Assembly (NCBI GenBank): GCA_002709395.1
Contig: PAQU01000026.1
Location: forward strand, 19,327-71,640
Direction: 5' to 3'
DNA: 52,314 bases
From: Roseibacillus sp.
Lineage (GTDB): Bacteria; Verrucomicrobiota; Verrucomicrobiia; Verrucomicrobiales; Akkermansiaceae
Both the position numbers and the translations under genes were made by a program. Below, piece by piece: positions 36,897-44,560 of the stretch (position 1 is the stretch's first letter; the number at the start of each line of letters is the position of its first letter). Under the pieces are notes generated by a model that worked only from the letters and a program-made list of their open reading frames with translations, did no database searches and had not been told where the DNA came from.

Positions 36897-38306
36897 TTAG
36901 AAGGGAAGTTTTGGTCCTCCCTTGCCATCCATGCCTCCCATGAGGTCCTTCATGTTTCCCATGTCCCCCGTGCCGCCACCTCCAAGGGCCCCAAGTTGTT
37001 TCATCATGTTCTTCATCTTGCCCTTCGACTTCATCATCTTACGCATCATGCCGAATTGCTTCAGGAGTTGATTCACCTCAAGTAGAGTTCGGCCGGAACC
37101 GGAGGCAATGCGCTTGCGGCGGGTGCCTTTGATGATCTCGGGGCGGCTGCGTTCCCGGGGAGTCATGGAAAGTACGATCGCTTCCATGTGCTTGATACGT
37201 TTGGAGTCAAGGGCTCCGGAAGGGAGTTGCTTCTTTATCTTGTTGAAACCTGGCATCATGCCGAGCAGCCCCTCGAGAGGGCCCAGGTTCTGGAGCATCT
37301 TCATCTGCTCAAGGAAATCATTGAAATCGAAACGCCCTTTCTCAAGTCGTCTGGCAGCCTTGGCAGCCTTCTCCTCGTCCAGGTGCTCAGCTACCTGCTC
37401 AACCATGGTGACGGTGTCGCCCATGTCGAGGACGCGGCCAGCCATGCGGTCCGGATGGAATTCATTAAGCTGTTCGAGCTTCTCTCCCTCACCGACGTAT
37501 TTGATGGGTCGGCCTGTAATGGCTCTCATGGAAAGAGCTGCGCCTCCGCGAGCATCTCCATCGAGCTTGGTGAGGATGATTCCACTGAGAGAGACAGCTT
37601 CATCGAATGTCTGCGCCACCTTGACGGCCTGCTGTCCGGTCGCGGCATCTGCCACGAGCAGAGTTTCACCGGGTTTGAGAAAACGGTGGAGGTCCTGCAG
37701 TTCCTGGACGAGCTCCTGATCAACTTCCTGGCGTCCCGCGGTATCAAAGATGATGCAGGATCCGGACTGTCGGTCGGCCCATTTCAGAGCGGCCTTGGCG
37801 ACCTTCACGACGTTCCTTTCCCTGGGTTCCGGAGTGTAGCAAGGGACGTCGATCTGCTCAGCGATAGTGGCGAGTTGGTCAATAGCAGCAGGTCGATAGA
37901 GGTCGCATGCTACAAGTAGTGGGCGGCGCCCTTCCTTTTTGAGGCGCAGGGCAAGTTTACCGGCAGTAGTGGTCTTCCCTGCTCCATTCAACCCACAGAG
38001 CAGGATGCGGGCAGGAGGATTAAGGTCCAGAGGGGCCTGATCTCCGCCGAGCAGGGAGGTGAGCTCATCGTGGAAGATCTTGACGATCTGCTCACCAGGT
38101 TTGACGGACTTGAGGACATCTTCACCTACCGCCTTCTTCTTAACGCTCTCGATGAAGGTCTGAGCAACCTTGTATTCCACATCCGCTTCGAGGAGGGCGA
38201 GTCGAATATCGCGGAGGGATTCGGAGATGTTCTTTTCCGAGATTCGGCCTACCCCACGCAGGTTTCTAAAGGTTTTGTCCAGTTTGTCGGAGAGTGCAGA
38301 AAACAT
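36897..38306 (-). CDS. ffh: Signal recognition particle protein Ffh
   Basis: The protein has 469 residues: N domain, GTPase G domain with Gly-Leu-Asn-Gly-Ala-Gly-Lys-Thr-Thr near residue 107, Asp-Thr-Ala-Gly-Arg and Thr-Lys-Leu-Asp-Gly-Asp, then the Met-rich M domain with the Ser-Gly-Ser-Gly RNA-binding motif. The tail is very rich in Met, Gly and Lys. Ffh binds 4.5S RNA and signal sequences and delivers ribosomes to FtsY and SecYEG. rpsP, trmD and other usual neighbours are absent. No Shine-Dalgarno sequence is seen. A weak inverted repeat lies in the 55 bp between the converging smc and ffh. Confidence 0.98.
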   Translation of the reverse strand: MFSALSDKLDKTFRNLRGVGRISEKNISESLRDIRLALLEADVEYKVAQTFIESVKKKAVGEDVLKSVKPGEQIVKIFHDELTSLLGGDQAPLDLNPPARILLCGLNGAGKTTTAGKLALRLKKEGRRPLLVACDLYRPAAIDQLATIAEQIDVPCYTPEPRERNVVKVAKAALKWADRQSGSCIIFDTAGRQEVDQELVQELQDLHRFLKPGETLLVADAATGQQAVKVAQTFDEAVSLSGIILTKLDGDARGGAALSMRAITGRPIKYVGEGEKLEQLNEFHPDRMAGRVLDMGDTVTMVEQVAEHLDEEKAAKAARRLEKGRFDFNDFLEQMKMLQNLGPLEGLLGMMPGFNKIKKQLPSGALDSKRIKHMEAIVLSMTPRERSRPEIIKGTRRKRIASGSGRTLLEVNQLLKQFGMMRKMMKSKGKMKNMMKQLGALGGGGTGDMGNMKDLMGGMDGKGGPKLPF

Positions 38307-38409
38307 GTCGAATTGCTGTAGGAGTGATGGTGACCGGGAAGCAGGGGCTGAGGCAAGCGGGGATCTGGTCCCTTATGACGAATAACTCAATAAACTAATA
38401 TGCACCGCT

Positions 38410-39570
38410 CTATTCTCCCGCGCCAACCTGATACGCCGCCTCGCGCTCAACAATAAAGCTCCAGCGCATGGGCGACTCATACTTACGGCTCCCCTTGAGG
38501 CGCCACTGAACATTTACTTCGCAGACGCGGTGTCGCAGTCGGCGATTAACGGCCCAGCTGAGGCGGGAGGTGACAGGGTCGAAGCCATGTTCCACCCTGC
38601 CAAAACCCGAGACCCGCATAATGATGGATTCCGGATCGAGATTCTTGAGCTCGGACAGGTCTGCACTGATGGACGGCAGTCTTGATTCGATCCTGCTTCC
38701 GGGTTCGGGGGTGACAGGGTATGGAGTCGTCTGAACCACCACCCCTGCAACTGCTTCTGATCCAAGGAGAGATTTGAAGGTGGTGGCCTGTTCAAAATGG
38801 AGATCTGAATTTCCATGGATGATGTAGCGGGGGAGGCGCCTGTCGTCGAGGCTCTGCCTGACCTTCCCAGGAAGAACAGTGAAGAGGTGGTCATAACCAT
38901 GTTCGGCGGCGACAGGATACATGTCCTCAGTGTAGTAGCCCCCGGGGTAGGCGTAGGTGGTGATTTTCTGGCTGAATTTCGTTTCGAGAAAACGCTTGGA
39001 TTCCCCGAACTCGCGGCGAAGGAACTTGCGATAGGCGTCTTCTCCCTTCCTCGCGTGATGCTTGATTGTCCCGGGAAAGGGATGGGACACGGAGTGGCTG
39101 CCAATCGAGCAACCATGCTGCTGCATTTCCCTTATCATCGAGGTGGTAAGCGCGCGCCCGCCTCCGTCAACGTAGTTCTTGTAGAGGTAGATGGTGAAGG
39201 GGAACTTGAATTCCTTCAGAATGGGAAAGGCCTCGGTATAGACGGATTTCCAGCCGTCATCGATGGTGATAACGATTGAGCGGGGAGGGATGAATTTCAT
39301 GCCCTTTTTCCATGCCAGGAAATCCTCAAGGGAAATGACCGGAAGCCGGAGATTCCTGAGGGCTTCCATCTGCTTACGGAAGGTTGCGGTGCGGATCCGC
39401 ATCTGGGAAGGAGCCAGAGTGGATGAGAATTCGTGATAACCTAGCACCGAAACCCGTGTGCCGTCGTCCTTCCGGGCAGGGGGAATGTCCTTCTGGTGAT
39501 CCTGTTGCTGAGCAGGAGAAGAGGGAGCAACAAGGACGAGCAGGAAAGGGAGAAGGAGGCGAAGAGGCAT
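38410..39570 (-). CDS. Secreted polysaccharide deacetylase family protein
   Basis: The protein has 386 residues. A signal peptide (Leu-Leu-Leu-Pro-Phe-Leu-Leu-Val-Leu-Val) ends near Ser-Ser-Pro-Ala-Gln. The NodB-like domain spans about 35-265, with Ile-Thr-Ile-Asp-Asp-Gly-Trp (catalytic and metal Asp) and Ser-His-Ser-Val-Ser-His (metal His pair), then Ala-Tyr-Pro-Gly-Gly. A C-terminal part of about 110 residues has no clear family. The family removes acetyl groups from N-acetylglucosamine polymers such as peptidoglycan, chitin or PNAG. It lies 105 bp beyond secDF, on the same strand, and may be co-transcribed with it. The substrate is unknown. Confidence 0.92.
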   Translation of the reverse strand: MPLRLLLPFLLVLVAPSSPAQQQDHQKDIPPARKDDGTRVSVLGYHEFSSTLAPSQMRIRTATFRKQMEALRNLRLPVISLEDFLAWKKGMKFIPPRSIVITIDDGWKSVYTEAFPILKEFKFPFTIYLYKNYVDGGGRALTTSMIREMQQHGCSIGSHSVSHPFPGTIKHHARKGEDAYRKFLRREFGESKRFLETKFSQKITTYAYPGGYYTEDMYPVAAEHGYDHLFTVLPGKVRQSLDDRRLPRYIIHGNSDLHFEQATTFKSLLGSEAVAGVVVQTTPYPVTPEPGSRIESRLPSISADLSELKNLDPESIIMRVSGFGRVEHGFDPVTSRLSWAVNRRLRHRVCEVNVQWRLKGSRKYESPMRWSFIVEREAAYQVGAGE

Positions 39571-39675: not shown

Positions 39676-42141
39676 TCAGGATCGGGCTCCGGCCGGGTTC
39701 ACCTGAGCCTCGAGATTGGCATCGAGAAGTTCGCGGCGGAGGTTGATACCCCGTTTGCGACTCCAATACAGCACGATGGGTGAAGCGACGAAGATGGAGG
39801 AGTAGGTCCCCACCACGACTCCTGCCATGATGGCAAAGGAGAAGGCCTTGAGGGCCGGTCCCCCAAAGAAGAAGAGCACAGCGACAGTGGCAAAGGTGGT
39901 AAGTGAAGTCAGGATCGTCCTGGACAGCGTCGCGTTGATCGCGAGATTCATCACTTCTTCCACTTCTCCCCGCTTTGTCCGGAGGGATTCCCGGATCCTG
40001 TCAAAGACGACAATGGTGTCATTGATGGAGTAGCCGGCAATAGTCAGGAATGCTCCCACGTGGATGAGGCTCAGTTCCTGTCCCGCAATCACCACGATGC
40101 CTATGCAGATGATGATATCATGAAACAGCGCGGCAAACGCGCCCATCGCAAATGAGAATTCGAAGCGGATTGTGATATAGATGAGGATTCCTACGAGGCC
40201 GATAGCCAGGGCGATCATCGAGTTCTTCAGGAAGTCTGCTCCCAGACTCGCCTCCACCGTGTCCCGTGAGGAGTCGTATTTCCAGGGCTTTTCGGCAGGG
40301 ATGCTGTTTTCTCCCTCCGGGGCAGGAGCCTGCTCAACCTGGGCAGCTTTTTCACTCAGCAACGGGATTTTCTCCCTGAGAGTATTCACAATCAGCTCGG
40401 CGTCCTCATCAGCACAGCGGACGGAGAGAATCTGAGAGTTGTCGGGTGCGGGAAGGGTCTCGTTCTGGATGATGGGCTCCTTCTTGAGGGTAAGTTCCTG
40501 AAGCGCGGCTTTTGCTTCCGATTCGGGAACGGTTTCCTGCTGGGTCTGGAACTGGACGAGAGCTCCCCCGGCAAAGTCGATGCCAAGGGCCTTGTCCTGC
40601 TTGATTCCGATGGTGAGAAGGCTGGCGGTGAGGCAGCAGATGGAAATCACGAAGGCGGTCTTGCGTTTGCCCATGAAGTTTATGGCTTGGCTTGGAACCA
40701 TATTCATGAATTTCATTCCGCGATTGTTCTCGTCAGCACGGCGCGAAGTCCACCAGAAGACGACCCGGGTCACCACCAGGGCCGCGAACATGGAGGCCAG
40801 AATCCCGATGGTCAGGGTGATTGCGAAGCCCTTTACCGTGCCGGAAGCACGCCAGAAAAGAATGATGGCGGTGATAAGGGTTGTGAGGTTGGCGTCGAAG
40901 ATTGCAGAGAAGGCCTTCTCGTAGGCTGCCTGGATCGCCGCGCCGAGGGATTTCCCTTCTCTCAGTTCCTCCCGTAATCGTTCGTAGATAAGAACGTTGG
41001 CGTCCACGGCGACTCCGATGGTAAGGATGATTCCCGCGATACCCGGCAGGGTGAAGGTGAACTCAAACATGGCCATGGCCCCGAAAAGGATGAGGACGTT
41101 GACCGAGAGGCCAATAAGCGCGATGAAGCCCGCGATTCGATAGTAGAAGAGAAGAAACAGGAGGGTCAGGGCGAGGCCCGCGATTCCTGCGTAAATCCCC
41201 TGACTCACGGTGGCCGCCCCAAGTCTGGCCGTCACGGTCGATTCCTTGACGATCAGGAGGGGGTTCTCGAGAGGGTTCATCAGGGTGGCGGACAGATTTT
41301 TGCATTCTTCCGCGTCGCCGACCCCTTCGATCACGAAGATGGAAGAGAGAGTGGCCTGGACTACCGGGGCACTGTTGACCTCTCCATCGAGCACGATGGC
41401 AAGGCGATCGCGGCCGTGTTGCATCGAGGAGGTGAGATTTCGCATCAGCTTTCCTCCACCGCTACTCAGTTGCACTCTCACGACTCCAGCTGATCCCGCA
41501 TCAGGATTGGCCTTCTTGACATGCTTGCCCTCGATCTTGTTACGCTTTTCGAGGAGAAGCTGTTCGGTGGTCGTTTCCCCGGTATTGTCATTGGTATCGG
41601 TATAGGAGTAGAGCTTGTAGCCGGCGATTACTACTTCCTTGGCCGCGACCTTGGGGGCAAGTTCGCTGTTGCGCGGGTGGACCGCGCGCAGTTCGAGAAC
41701 AGACTGCTTCTGGATGATTTGTCTTACCCAGGCGGCTTCCTCCTCCGAGACACCGGGCATCTCGATAATGATCATATCCTCACCCTGGGGTTGGATGAGC
41801 ATGTCCTTGGTCCCCTCCGGGTTGAGTCGACCCCTAAGCGTCTTGATAGCCTGCTGGATTGAGTCGGGGGTGACTTCAATTGCCTCGCCACTTTCGTCGT
41901 CGACCTTCGGTTGGACCTTGAGGGTGAAGGATGCGCCACCAGCGAGGTCAATTCCCGGCTTGAGCGGGAGGCTGTCAGAATTTTCAGCTCGCGGGGTGAG
42001 GGACCAGATGCAGAGGACCAGGATGCCGGAAATGAGAACCGTTCCTACCTTGCGCTTACGGTTGATATCATCACTGGCGAGATACCAGAAGAGGAGGGCC
42101 AGAATGAGCAGGCCGGAGAGGAAAACGATCGTGGGTTGCAT
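39676..42141 (-). CDS. secDF: Fused protein translocase subunit SecDF
   Basis: The protein has 821 residues from the ATG at 42141; a TTG at 42195 would overlap the upstream gene and is unlikely. SecD comes first: Gly-Ile-Asp-Leu-Ala-Gly-Gly at about 63-69, the periplasmic P1 domain at about 90-300 with Gly-Arg-Asp-Arg-Leu-Ala-Ile-Val, then six membrane helices. SecF follows from about 500 with Gly-Ile-Asp-Phe-Ala-Gly-Gly and its own helices. One uninterrupted frame covers both, as in Bacillus and many PVC bacteria. SecDF uses the proton gradient to pull proteins out on the far side of SecYEG. An extra N-terminal helix precedes the usual first helix. It follows the SecD-P1-like lipoprotein gene by 43 bp. 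Confidence 0.97.
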   Translation of the reverse strand: MQPTIVFLSGLLILALLFWYLASDDINRKRKVGTVLISGILVLCIWSLTPRAENSDSLPLKPGIDLAGGASFTLKVQPKVDDESGEAIEVTPDSIQQAIKTLRGRLNPEGTKDMLIQPQGEDMIIIEMPGVSEEEAAWVRQIIQKQSVLELRAVHPRNSELAPKVAAKEVVIAGYKLYSYTDTNDNTGETTTEQLLLEKRNKIEGKHVKKANPDAGSAGVVRVQLSSGGGKLMRNLTSSMQHGRDRLAIVLDGEVNSAPVVQATLSSIFVIEGVGDAEECKNLSATLMNPLENPLLIVKESTVTARLGAATVSQGIYAGIAGLALTLLFLLFYYRIAGFIALIGLSVNVLILFGAMAMFEFTFTLPGIAGIILTIGVAVDANVLIYERLREELREGKSLGAAIQAAYEKAFSAIFDANLTTLITAIILFWRASGTVKGFAITLTIGILASMFAALVVTRVVFWWTSRRADENNRGMKFMNMVPSQAINFMGKRKTAFVISICCLTASLLTIGIKQDKALGIDFAGGALVQFQTQQETVPESEAKAALQELTLKKEPIIQNETLPAPDNSQILSVRCADEDAELIVNTLREKIPLLSEKAAQVEQAPAPEGENSIPAEKPWKYDSSRDTVEASLGADFLKNSMIALAIGLVGILIYITIRFEFSFAMGAFAALFHDIIICIGIVVIAGQELSLIHVGAFLTIAGYSINDTIVVFDRIRESLRTKRGEVEEVMNLAINATLSRTILTSLTTFATVAVLFFFGGPALKAFSFAIMAGVVVGTYSSIFVASPIVLYWSRKRGINLRRELLDANLEAQVNPAGARS

Positions 42142-42184
42142 TATTGGGAGATGCTTGGGATGGAGACCGCTAAGGCTTCTGGGC

Positions 42185-42952
42185 CTATGGTGCAAGCGGC
42201 ATAAGTGATTCGATCAGGAGTTGGGCGGAGAGGGGTTTGTTAAGGGAAGCGGCGAGGCCCTCGGCTTCCTCGAAGGAGTTAAATCCCTCGAGAGTCACCG
42301 GGGTCCACAATTCTTGGGTTACGACCGGGGCGCTGATAATCCGTTCATCGTAGATGATGGCAAGTCGGGAGCGGCCTTTTTGCATTTTTTCGCTGGCGGC
42401 CTTAATTTGACTTAACCCATTGGAATTAAGAGAAATATGGACCATATGCTCCTTTCCCCGCTCTGCCCGGGCACCCTCAACATGGCTGTTGTTGAGGATC
42501 TCGGCCCTCGCGACGGCCAGTTTTTCTCTTTTCCGGTAGTCGCCTGAGATGACCTCATGGGTCAGGATTTCGTAGTCGGGAGGGAACTGGGAAGGTTCCT
42601 TGAGGATGAGATCGGTGAGGTAGGCACTGCGATCGTGTATGGCCCGGATACTGATCCTGCCGTTCTCGCATAGTTTGTCGATCCTCTTCAGTGCGTCTTT
42701 CTTGTCCGAGGCATGAAACCGGATTGTGAGGCGGCCGTTGGAACTCTCACTGGGATTGATCTTGAGAGGAATCTCGAGAAGGGCGGCCCGGTTCTTCAAC
42801 TCCGTGGCCAGGGTGGTCAATGCAAGGCCCGGGCTGTCTGGAGGGAGAGAGAGTGTGGCCTCCCAGTTAGGGCTCTTCCGAGGCTTGCAGGCAGTCAGCG
42901 CCAGAGACGCGCAGATGAGAAGGGTGCCGCCCAATGAAGGGAAAGTTGACAT
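42185..42952 (-). CDS. Lipoprotein consisting of a stand-alone SecD P1-like periplasmic domain
   Basis: The protein has 255 residues. The signal peptide ends in a lipobox Leu-Thr-Ala-Cys (Cys22), so the mature protein is a lipid-anchored periplasmic protein. Residues about 40-250 align by eye with P1 of the neighbouring SecDF across its whole length: Ile-Arg-Ala-Ile-His (102-106) with Leu-Arg-Ala-Val-His, Val-His-Ile-Ser-Leu-Asn-Ser with Val-Arg-Val-Gln-Leu-Ser-Ser, and Gly-Arg-Ser-Arg-Leu-Ala-Ile-Ile (193-200) with Gly-Arg-Asp-Arg-Leu-Ala-Ile-Val, both followed by Ser-Ala-Pro-Val-Val. There is no membrane channel part. It lies between yajC (34 bp) and secDF (43 bp) in one run. A role in protein export is strongly suggested by homology and position, but is inference; I know of no described equivalent. 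Confidence 0.88.
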   Translation of the reverse strand: MSTFPSLGGTLLICASLALTACKPRKSPNWEATLSLPPDSPGLALTTLATELKNRAALLEIPLKINPSESSNGRLTIRFHASDKKDALKRIDKLCENGRISIRAIHDRSAYLTDLILKEPSQFPPDYEILTHEVISGDYRKREKLAVARAEILNNSHVEGARAERGKEHMVHISLNSNGLSQIKAASEKMQKGRSRLAIIYDERIISAPVVTQELWTPVTLEGFNSFEEAEGLAASLNKPLSAQLLIESLMPLAP

Positions 42953-42986: not shown

Positions 42987-43388
42987 TCAACGGTATCTGT
43001 TCTCGTCCGTCATCTCTTCGTCTTCACTGCTCTCGGGCTCTACCGGGTCTTCCTTCTGCTTGCCCTTGCCGACCTTGGTTACCGAGCGGATTGCGTCCTT
43101 TTCGAAGGGAACGAAGACACCCTCGGAGAGTTTTACTGTCACAGTGGTCTTCGAAATATGGTGGACGGTTCCATGGAGCCCTCCGATCGAGATGATCTTG
43201 TCACCCTTGCTAAGAGAAGCCACCCGGGCAGCCTGCTCCTTCCGCTGCTTGGACTGTGGGCGGATGATGAGGAAATACATGATGACGAACATCAGGAGAA
43301 GCATGACCCACATGCTTCCCATGGGGTTCTGGGGCGTCTCCCCTTGTTTCTGGGGCGGAGCAGCAGCGATAATGGAATAACACTTCAT
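42987..43388 (-). CDS. yajC: Sec translocon accessory protein YajC
   Basis: The protein has 133 residues with one membrane helix at about 28-45 (Met-Leu-Leu-Leu-Met-Phe-Val-Ile-Met-Tyr-Phe-Leu-Ile-Ile-Arg-Pro), followed by the YajC core Pro-Gln-Ser-Lys-Gln-Arg-Lys and Lys-Gly-Asp-Lys-Ile-Ile-Ser-Ile-Gly-Gly-Leu-His-Gly. YajC joins SecDF and YidC in a membrane complex. The start overlaps the tgt stop by four bases (ATGA). The tail is rich in Glu, Asp and Lys. The order tgt-yajC-secD-secF known from many bacteria is kept, with one gene inserted. Confidence 0.95.
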   Translation of the reverse strand: MKCYSIIAAAPPQKQGETPQNPMGSMWVMLLLMFVIMYFLIIRPQSKQRKEQAARVASLSKGDKIISIGGLHGTVHHISKTTVTVKLSEGVFVPFEKDAIRSVTKVGKGKQKEDPVEPESSEDEEMTDENRYR

Positions 43389-44560
43389 TTGTTCTGGTGG
43401 TTGTAGCGCTCGCAGAAGGAGGCCTGGAATTCAACGAAATTGCCAGCGCTGATGGCCTCCCGCGCGCTGCGCATGAGGCGAAGGTAGAAATCAAGATTGT
43501 GGAAAGAAAGCAATCGCAAAGCCAGCATTTCTCCGGCCTTGAAAAGATGGCGGAGATAGGCGCGGGAGAAGCCTGCTACATGAGGGTGGCAGTCCTCGGT
43601 CAGGGGTGACGGGTCCCGTTCAAAGCGGGCATTCTTTATGTGAATGGGGCCATCATGGGTAAATGCCAGACCATGACGGGCCGAGCGGGTGGGGTGAACG
43701 CAGTCGAACATGTCTACGCCACGCGCGATCATCTCAAGCATCTGGGGTGGGGTTCCCAATCCCATGGCATATCGCGGTTTCCCGGTTGGAAGGAAGGGTT
43801 CGCTGTTATCGATAGCATGAAACATTTCCTCCTCGGGTTCACCCACTGAGACTCCGCCTACGGCATATCCATCAAAGTCGAGTGCTCCGAGGGCACGTGC
43901 TGAGGATTCCCGCAGGTCGGGGTAGGAGGACCCCTGGACAATTCCAAAACAGAGTTGGCGCACGGGCGAGTTCCCGGAGTTCGAATCCGGAGTGGTGGTC
44001 TCTTGCCCGGAAGGAAAGTGGAGAGCGGAATGCTCCTCATGCCACTTCCGGCAGCGCTCGGCCCATCGGGTGGTCAGGTCAGTGGATTGCTCGGCATAAT
44101 TCCGTTCGCAGGGATAGGGAGGGCACTCATCAAAGACCATGGCGATGTCCGAACCGAGAGTGGCCTGGATCTCCATGCTTTTTTCCGGAGTCAGGAGGGC
44201 GGGGGATCCGTCGAGGTGATTTTGAAAGTGGACTCCCTCCTCGGTAATTCTCCGGGTTTTGGAAAGTGACCACACCTGGAATCCTCCCGAATCGGTCAGG
44301 ATGGGGCGGTCCCAGGTGCTGAACCTGTGAAGTCCACCCATTTCCCGGAGGGTATCCTGACCAGGGCGAAGCCACAGGTGGTAGGTGTTGCCGAGAATGA
44401 TTTCGGCATCAAGAAGTCGTAGTTCCTCAGGGTGGAGAGTCTTAACCGAGCCCTGCGTTCCGACGGGCATGAATACGGGAGTTTCAACCGTGCCATGTGC
44501 AGTGGTGAGGCGACCGTGGCGGGCCTTGGTAGAGGAGTCGGTGGCGAGAAGCTCGAACAC
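43385..44560 (-). CDS. tgt: tRNA-guanine transglycosylase (queuosine) with altered zinc site
   Basis: The protein has 391 residues, starting at GTG 44560. Active-site features are present: the base Asp90 in Leu-Thr-Asp-Ser-Gly-Gly-Phe-Gln, Gly-Gly-Val-Ser-Val-Gly, and the nucleophile Asp286 in Met-Phe-Asp-Cys-Val-His-Pro-Thr-Arg. It exchanges guanine 34 for preQ1 in tRNAs with a GUN anticodon. The zinc site normally reads C-x-C-x2-C...H. Here the region before Ser-Arg-Ala-Tyr-Leu reads Asp323-Cys324-His325-Pro326-His327-Val328, so the three Cys slots hold Asp, His and Val; the distal His354 is kept. A shifted Cys/His/His site may replace it. A short Ser/Thr/Gly-rich insertion lies at about 184-200. 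yajC follows with a four-base overlap. Confidence 0.95.
   Translation of the reverse strand: MFELLATDSSTKARHGRLTTAHGTVETPVFMPVGTQGSVKTLHPEELRLLDAEIILGNTYHLWLRPGQDTLREMGGLHRFSTWDRPILTDSGGFQVWSLSKTRRITEEGVHFQNHLDGSPALLTPEKSMEIQATLGSDIAMVFDECPPYPCERNYAEQSTDLTTRWAERCRKWHEEHSALHFPSGQETTTPDSNSGNSPVRQLCFGIVQGSSYPDLRESSARALGALDFDGYAVGGVSVGEPEEEMFHAIDNSEPFLPTGKPRYAMGLGTPPQMLEMIARGVDMFDCVHPTRSARHGLAFTHDGPIHIKNARFERDPSPLTEDCHPHVAGFSRAYLRHLFKAGEMLALRLLSFHNLDFYLRLMRSAREAISAGNFVEFQASFCERYNHQNK

Follow-up and report, generated by a model that had tools for sequence, protein, structure and literature searches.

A predicted lipoprotein built from a SecD P1 domain and encoded between yajC and secDF in Roseibacillus

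The Sec cluster of a Roseibacillus genome, from a group of marine bacteria, encodes a second P1 domain beside an intact SecDF. This P1 domain has no motor and is predicted to be anchored by a lipid. The gene, here called P1lp (P1 lipoprotein gene), lies in a contig stretch of 52,314 nucleotides that was analysed as a whole (the window). The P1 domain family is already known and structurally solved (SecD/SecDF P1; PF22599 SecDF_P1_head, PF21760 SecD_1st), and P1lp shares with it the fold, the head motifs and the yajC-secDF cluster. In the open-access literature searched, we found nothing relevant to stand-alone, truncated or SecD-like P1 proteins, neither a P1 with a lipid anchor and no motor within the translocon cluster nor the repeated origin of such a protein. 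Our favored but tentative reading is that P1lp, co-produced with the SecDF motor and tethered by its lipid, acts as a passive holdase directly at the Sec exit or close to it.

The P1lp gene and its cluster

The open reading frame of P1lp is intact and runs on the minus strand from an ATG at 42952, immediately preceded by an in-frame TAG, to a stop at 42185. The initial annotation had given the coordinates correctly without stating the strand. The features are as follows.

42185..42952, minus strand: P1lp, 255 amino acids (open reading frame, Pfam and orthologues)
42887..42952, minus strand: predicted lipoprotein signal peptide, residues 1-22 (lipobox LTAC, orthologue alignment)
42668..42865, minus strand: N-terminal part of the P1 base, residues 30-95 (profile alignment, model)
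42218..42655, minus strand: P1 head subdomain, residues 100-245 (Pfam, profile, model)
42197..42217, minus strand: strand predicted to close the base, residues 246-252 (model); residues 253-255 and the stop codon come after it
39676..42195, minus strand: secDF, a SecD-SecF fusion that has an intact P1 of its own (family profile matches)
42987..43388, minus strand: yajC, upstream neighbor of P1lp (family profile matches)
43385..44560, minus strand: first gene of the cluster, presumably tgt, queuine tRNA-ribosyltransferase (gene order)

The genes are arranged in the order tgt-yajC-P1lp-secDF, all on the minus strand; tgt is so named on our assumption from gene order and family knowledge. secDF probably starts not with the TTG at 42195 but with a conserved ATG at 42141, as supported by the start region of secDF in relatives, which reads ATGCAACC[CT]ACGATCGT or a close variant. 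P1lp is separated by 34 nt from yajC and by 43 nt from this ATG. Because of the gene order and short spacing, the four genes are likely to form a single operon, and the gene map agrees with the placement between yajC and secDF originally proposed. Downstream of secDF, on the same strand, are a polysaccharide-deacetylase-like gene and ffh (window 36897-39570), and the order secDF, polysaccharide-deacetylase-like gene, ffh is repeated in genome G012 (L043).

The lipobox, L19-T20-A21-C22 (Cys22 codon at 42887-42889), is directly followed by the basic residues KPRK. A lipobox was present in all 13 orthologues checked, and Cys22 and Lys23 are invariant among the 13 genus members, which bears out the Cys22 lipobox of the initial annotation. 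A minor weakness is that the n-region of this P1lp has no Lys or Arg ahead of the hydrophobic stretch; Arg2 is present in several orthologues. With a signal peptide, a lipobox and an invariant Cys, P1lp is a predicted lipoprotein. Lys at the +2 position is not an inner-membrane retention signal in E. coli, but the rules in Verrucomicrobiota may differ.

A P1 domain without the motor

The head of P1lp was recognized by Pfam PF22599 (SecDF_P1_head) over residues 140-238, with 49.5 bits against a cut-off of 27 (E=4.5e-13). It contains an invariant stretch of 20 residues, KGRSRLAIIYDERIISAPVV (residues 192-211), and both head motifs quoted earlier were located, Gly-Arg-x-Arg-Leu-Ala-Ile as G193-R-S-R-L-A-I199 and Ser-Ala-Pro-Val-Val as S207-A-P-V-V211. 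The initial annotation had also claimed an alignment of about 210 residues through the whole P1 domain of the adjacent SecDF. This did not hold for direct BLASTP, where the alignment was confined to the head (105 residues at 35% identity, E=2e-15), but it held for the profile and the fold. A profile-profile comparison (hhalign) with twelve SecDF P1 domains of Akkermansiaceae, as had been suggested, gave a probability of 99.7% and E=1.1e-25 over 196 columns (P1lp residues 52-249).

An AlphaFold model built from the orthologues alone was poor (pLDDT 53.5), but each of its top six Foldseek hits among PDB structures was a SecDF. When SecDF head rows were added, with the same-locus SecDF rows cut to the safely aligned part, the model reached a pLDDT of 84.3 and a pTM of 0.75, and the N-terminal base was predicted as beta-alpha-beta-beta-alpha. 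Among the Thermus thermophilus SecDF structures (3aqo, which is the isolated P1, 3aqp, 5xan and 5yhf), the isolated P1 (3aqo_C) superposed on this model with Z=18.3 over 202 residues (rmsd 3.2 A), compared with Z=8.3 for the best non-SecDF chain; the SecDF sequences help this model, and these scores are to be weighed jointly with the profile match and the orthologue-only Foldseek result. The predicted structure indicates that P1lp adopts the whole P1 fold, base and head, and the structural comparison proposed with the initial annotation leaves its P1 assignment standing.

On the other hand, no Pfam match to SecD_1st, Sec_GG (PF07549), SecD_SecF_C or MMPL was found in the 255 residues of P1lp, in line with the claimed loss of the membrane channel. 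The secD profile TIGR01129 scored 38 bits against a cut-off of 244.4, and the GG motif (GIDLAGG of SecDF, at the TM1-P1 junction) was not found in P1lp. Since the channel and the GG motif were looked for and are missing, P1lp is classed by family as a P1-domain protein and not as a SecD. It differs from SecDF in being a separate lipoprotein without transmembrane helices, GG motif, P4 or proton channel, and in its relaxed base.

Duplications of SecDF are known in other bacteria, such as the second complete SecDF of Streptomyces and the VemP-controlled SecD2F2 of Vibrio. These paralogues retain the channel and the motor, whereas only P1 was duplicated in Roseibacillus. VemP is an exported protein encoded just upstream of secDF2, and P1lp is likewise a predicted exported protein encoded just before secDF, 43 nt away, with a conserved C-terminus. 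Translation or export of P1lp might regulate the downstream secDF in a VemP-like manner. However, VemP has no homology to P1 and functions as an arrest peptide, whereas P1lp is a predicted folded P1 domain in which the C-terminus corresponds by homology to the strand that closes P1. Moreover, its end differs by subclade (PLAP/PLAR versus PLAPLAK or PLAPQAK), unlike a fixed arrest motif, and the strongest conservation is in the head. We consider such a secretion monitor highly improbable.

Selection within Roseibacillus and recurrence in Verrucomicrobiota

P1lp is located between yajC and secDF in 13 of the 15 Roseibacillus-group genomes, with identities of 52-74%. Neither P1lp nor SecDF was found in genome G007. 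In genome G012, which has no P1lp, yajC directly adjoins secDF, and the SecDF of this genome groups outside the rest. The reading frame is open in all 13 orthologues. Pairwise dN/dS values were mostly 0.13-0.35 for P1lp and about 0.05-0.24 for SecDF P1 in the same genomes, indicating that P1lp is under purifying selection somewhat weaker than that on SecDF P1. The gene-order survey suggested earlier thus found the gene held in place across the genus, and the concern that it might be confined to one genome with signs of decay was not borne out. A chance match or an assembly artefact was rejected on the profile E-values and the recurrence in 13 assemblies. No plasmid-borne copies were found. Genome G014 contains two P1 lipoprotein copies in similar loci on contigs C2 and C27 (L007, L056, L060); a strain mixture in the metagenome bin is a more likely explanation for these than a true duplication.

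Partial secD duplications recur in Akkermansiaceae and some of them may be neutral, so that P1lp could in principle be a non-functional relic of such an event. This is contradicted for Roseibacillus by dN/dS values well below 1; the frame preserved in every orthologue, the invariant lipobox Cys and the 20-residue invariant stretch in the head also argue against it, and we regard a relic as scarcely credible.

Selection is not distributed over P1lp as it is over SecDF P1. Mean identity in P1lp was 0.615 for the base and 0.767 for the head, versus 0.863 and 0.777, respectively, in SecDF P1 (structured parts only, averaged over 66 genome pairs). The direction was consistent in 63/66 pairs for P1lp and 65/66 for SecDF P1, although the pairs are not independent. 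By these values, the P1lp head is constrained as tightly as that of SecDF, whereas the base, the best conserved part of SecDF P1, is relaxed. The base of SecDF links P1 to the membrane part. A head that is kept and a base that is released form the pattern expected if the head still works and the base is uncoupled from the channel.

The relaxed base also bears on two ways in which P1lp might act on SecDF itself. A free P1 could compete with or dock on the P1 of the motor or its partner chaperones, and thereby tune or inhibit the motor. The P1lp dose is tied to secDF via the likely operon, the same head surface is under constraint, and the P1 head touches partner chaperones in other bacteria (PMC7793623, PMC9987972). 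However, it is the base that is relaxed, although contacts facing SecDF would be expected to be preserved there, and the stand-alone P1 genes L068, L088 and L036 are unlinked to secDF; a modulator role, close to the inhibitor first suggested, seems unlikely. The second possibility is that P1lp is a second P1 arm physically assembled on SecDF as a hetero-oligomer. The predicted complete P1 fold including the base, and the co-transcription that is likely from gene spacing, would suit such an assembly, but the relaxation of the base makes it improbable.

P1lp is not an isolated oddity; about a dozen parallel cases with various anchors were found in Verrucomicrobiota. The surveys spanned Akkermansiaceae, the class and the phylum; outside the family, stand-alone genes were sampled. 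At least two P1-head matches were present in 24 of 65 Akkermansiaceae genomes. The same was true of 19 genomes among 220 from the rest of Verrucomicrobiota; in four or more of these 19, the additional match is a second complete SecDF. In other genera of Akkermansiaceae, the order yajC-P1-secDF occurs in genus groups g13 (L065, L066), g14 (L085-L087) and g9 (L032, head only), and a P1 gene lies immediately upstream of secDF in group g10 (L033, L034). The anchors of the stand-alone proteins vary among a signal peptide, retained transmembrane helices and a lipobox, the last at the unlinked loci L068 and L088.

A maximum-likelihood tree was built from 71 P1 domains. It placed most stand-alone copies beside the SecDF from the same genome or genus. 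The stand-alone label needed 12 changes on this tree, 11 of them forced by well-supported branches, a count to be read with the long stand-alone branches in mind and with the possibility that old gene conversion with the adjacent secDF mimics separate origins. A single common origin of all stand-alone P1 genes was rejected (p-AU 8e-12). On a quick tree, one clade of all Akkermansiaceae lipoprotein forms (p-AU 0.007) and one clade of the Roseibacillus lipoprotein with that of another class (p-AU 0.0002) were also rejected. The latter lipoprotein has the following position.

L097:5402-6058, plus strand: P1-head lipoprotein of genome G524, 218 amino acids, from another class of the phylum

Its P1 head is 69% identical to that of its own SecDF over 173 residues and its gene lies directly upstream of yajC-secDF; judged from these sequences, it is separately derived. 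Constraining the Roseibacillus P1lp clade with Roseibacillus SecDF cost 0.12 lnL (p-AU 0.47), as a lineage-specific duplication predicts. P1lp is therefore compatible with a secD duplication specific to the Roseibacillus lineage, whose age is not fixed by its long branch. Together with fold and gene order, this tree constraint supports the initial view of a secD-derived, channel-less protein held in the translocon operon.

P1 heads were also observed in other protein types. In three other Akkermansiaceae genera, secreted proteins combine a P1 head with a domain that weakly resembles BamE; these matches, at E about 1e-4, fall just under the Pfam cut-off.

L038:4499-5974, minus strand: P1 head and BamE-like protein
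L041:5507-6700, plus strand: P1 head and BamE-like protein
L095:4374-5558, minus strand: P1 head and BamE-like protein

These sub-threshold matches hint at a link of P1 heads to outer-membrane assembly. They bring up the possibility that P1lp is a carrier or adaptor in lipoprotein or outer-membrane traffic, which would take over clients after Sec and convey them outward; its predicted lipid anchor, non-Asp +2 residue and invariant Lys23 are consistent with this. However, the BamE match does not reach the threshold and concerns another type of protein, and no Lol or Bam gene was seen within the P1lp operon, so that such a carrier appears decidedly unlikely.

Two further kinds of P1 protein were noted.

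L071:4243-5943, plus strand: 566-residue exported protein with one clear P1 head, genome G148 (group g3)

This protein has at least one further degenerate P1-like unit, recognized by eye and by a second SecDF BLAST match, and similar proteins are present in several genomes of group g3. Small secreted head-only P1 proteins, unlinked to secDF, occur in several genera (L067, L069, L040, L047, L070, L092) and look like a separate orthologous group.

Proposed role of P1lp at the Sec exit

P1lp cannot pull, since it is without the transmembrane channel and the GG motif; protons cannot drive a P1 that has no channel. Of the roles first suggested, an extra substrate holder is best supported, because the constraint on the head is kept and the base is relaxed. 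On this reading, P1lp is a duplicated SecD P1 that was split from the proton-driven motor and re-anchored by a lipid. The lipidated protein would stay on the periplasmic side, directly at the Sec exit or close to it, where its head may capture polypeptides emerging from SecYEG. It might prevent their backsliding and aggregation without energy, comparable to the membrane-tethered PpiD, and relay them between the P1 of SecDF and chaperones of the periplasm. Since P1lp would be expressed together with secDF, its amount would follow that of the translocon. The likeness to PpiD and SurA concerns only this proposed energy-independent holding of chains that exit SecYEG; the fold is unrelated and P1lp has no parvulin domain, so that it is a functional analogy and not membership. 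The genome has genes for one protein of SurA_N type and for three that are Skp-like, and P1lp is therefore no replacement for missing chaperones.

In SecDF, the P1 head is the part that binds translocating substrate and adjoins the chaperone PpiD (PMC7793623), and SurA has been modelled onto it (PMC9987972). From a P1 fold with a constrained head, we infer chain binding near SecYEG. However, the conservation of the head could reflect folding or a protein-protein interface, the base still folds in the model and retains some constraint, and an outer-membrane destination would put P1lp away from the Sec exit.

More broadly, it is possible, if rather doubtful, that a class of chaperones at the bacterial Sec exit has been overlooked: SecD P1 heads that work autonomously and without a motor, repeatedly created from the local secDF. 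With equal reserve, such heads would have arisen about a dozen times among the sampled Verrucomicrobiota, as lipoproteins, transmembrane-anchored or secreted proteins, and the Roseibacillus lipoprotein would be one stable example.

How SecDF divides its contribution between chain gripping by P1 and proton-driven P1 movement is unsettled. P1 alone, variously anchored and under selection beside an intact motor, seems to be a repeated natural separation experiment. That related bacteria copied P1 many separate times suggests that a substrate-gripping P1 is useful by itself. Should P1lp bind translocating chains, a small soluble domain would make the passive side of this mechanism directly testable. 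To our knowledge, the export biology of Verrucomicrobiota has been little studied; under the same proviso, P1lp would represent a new type of holdase at the Sec exit of this phylum, which includes Akkermansia.
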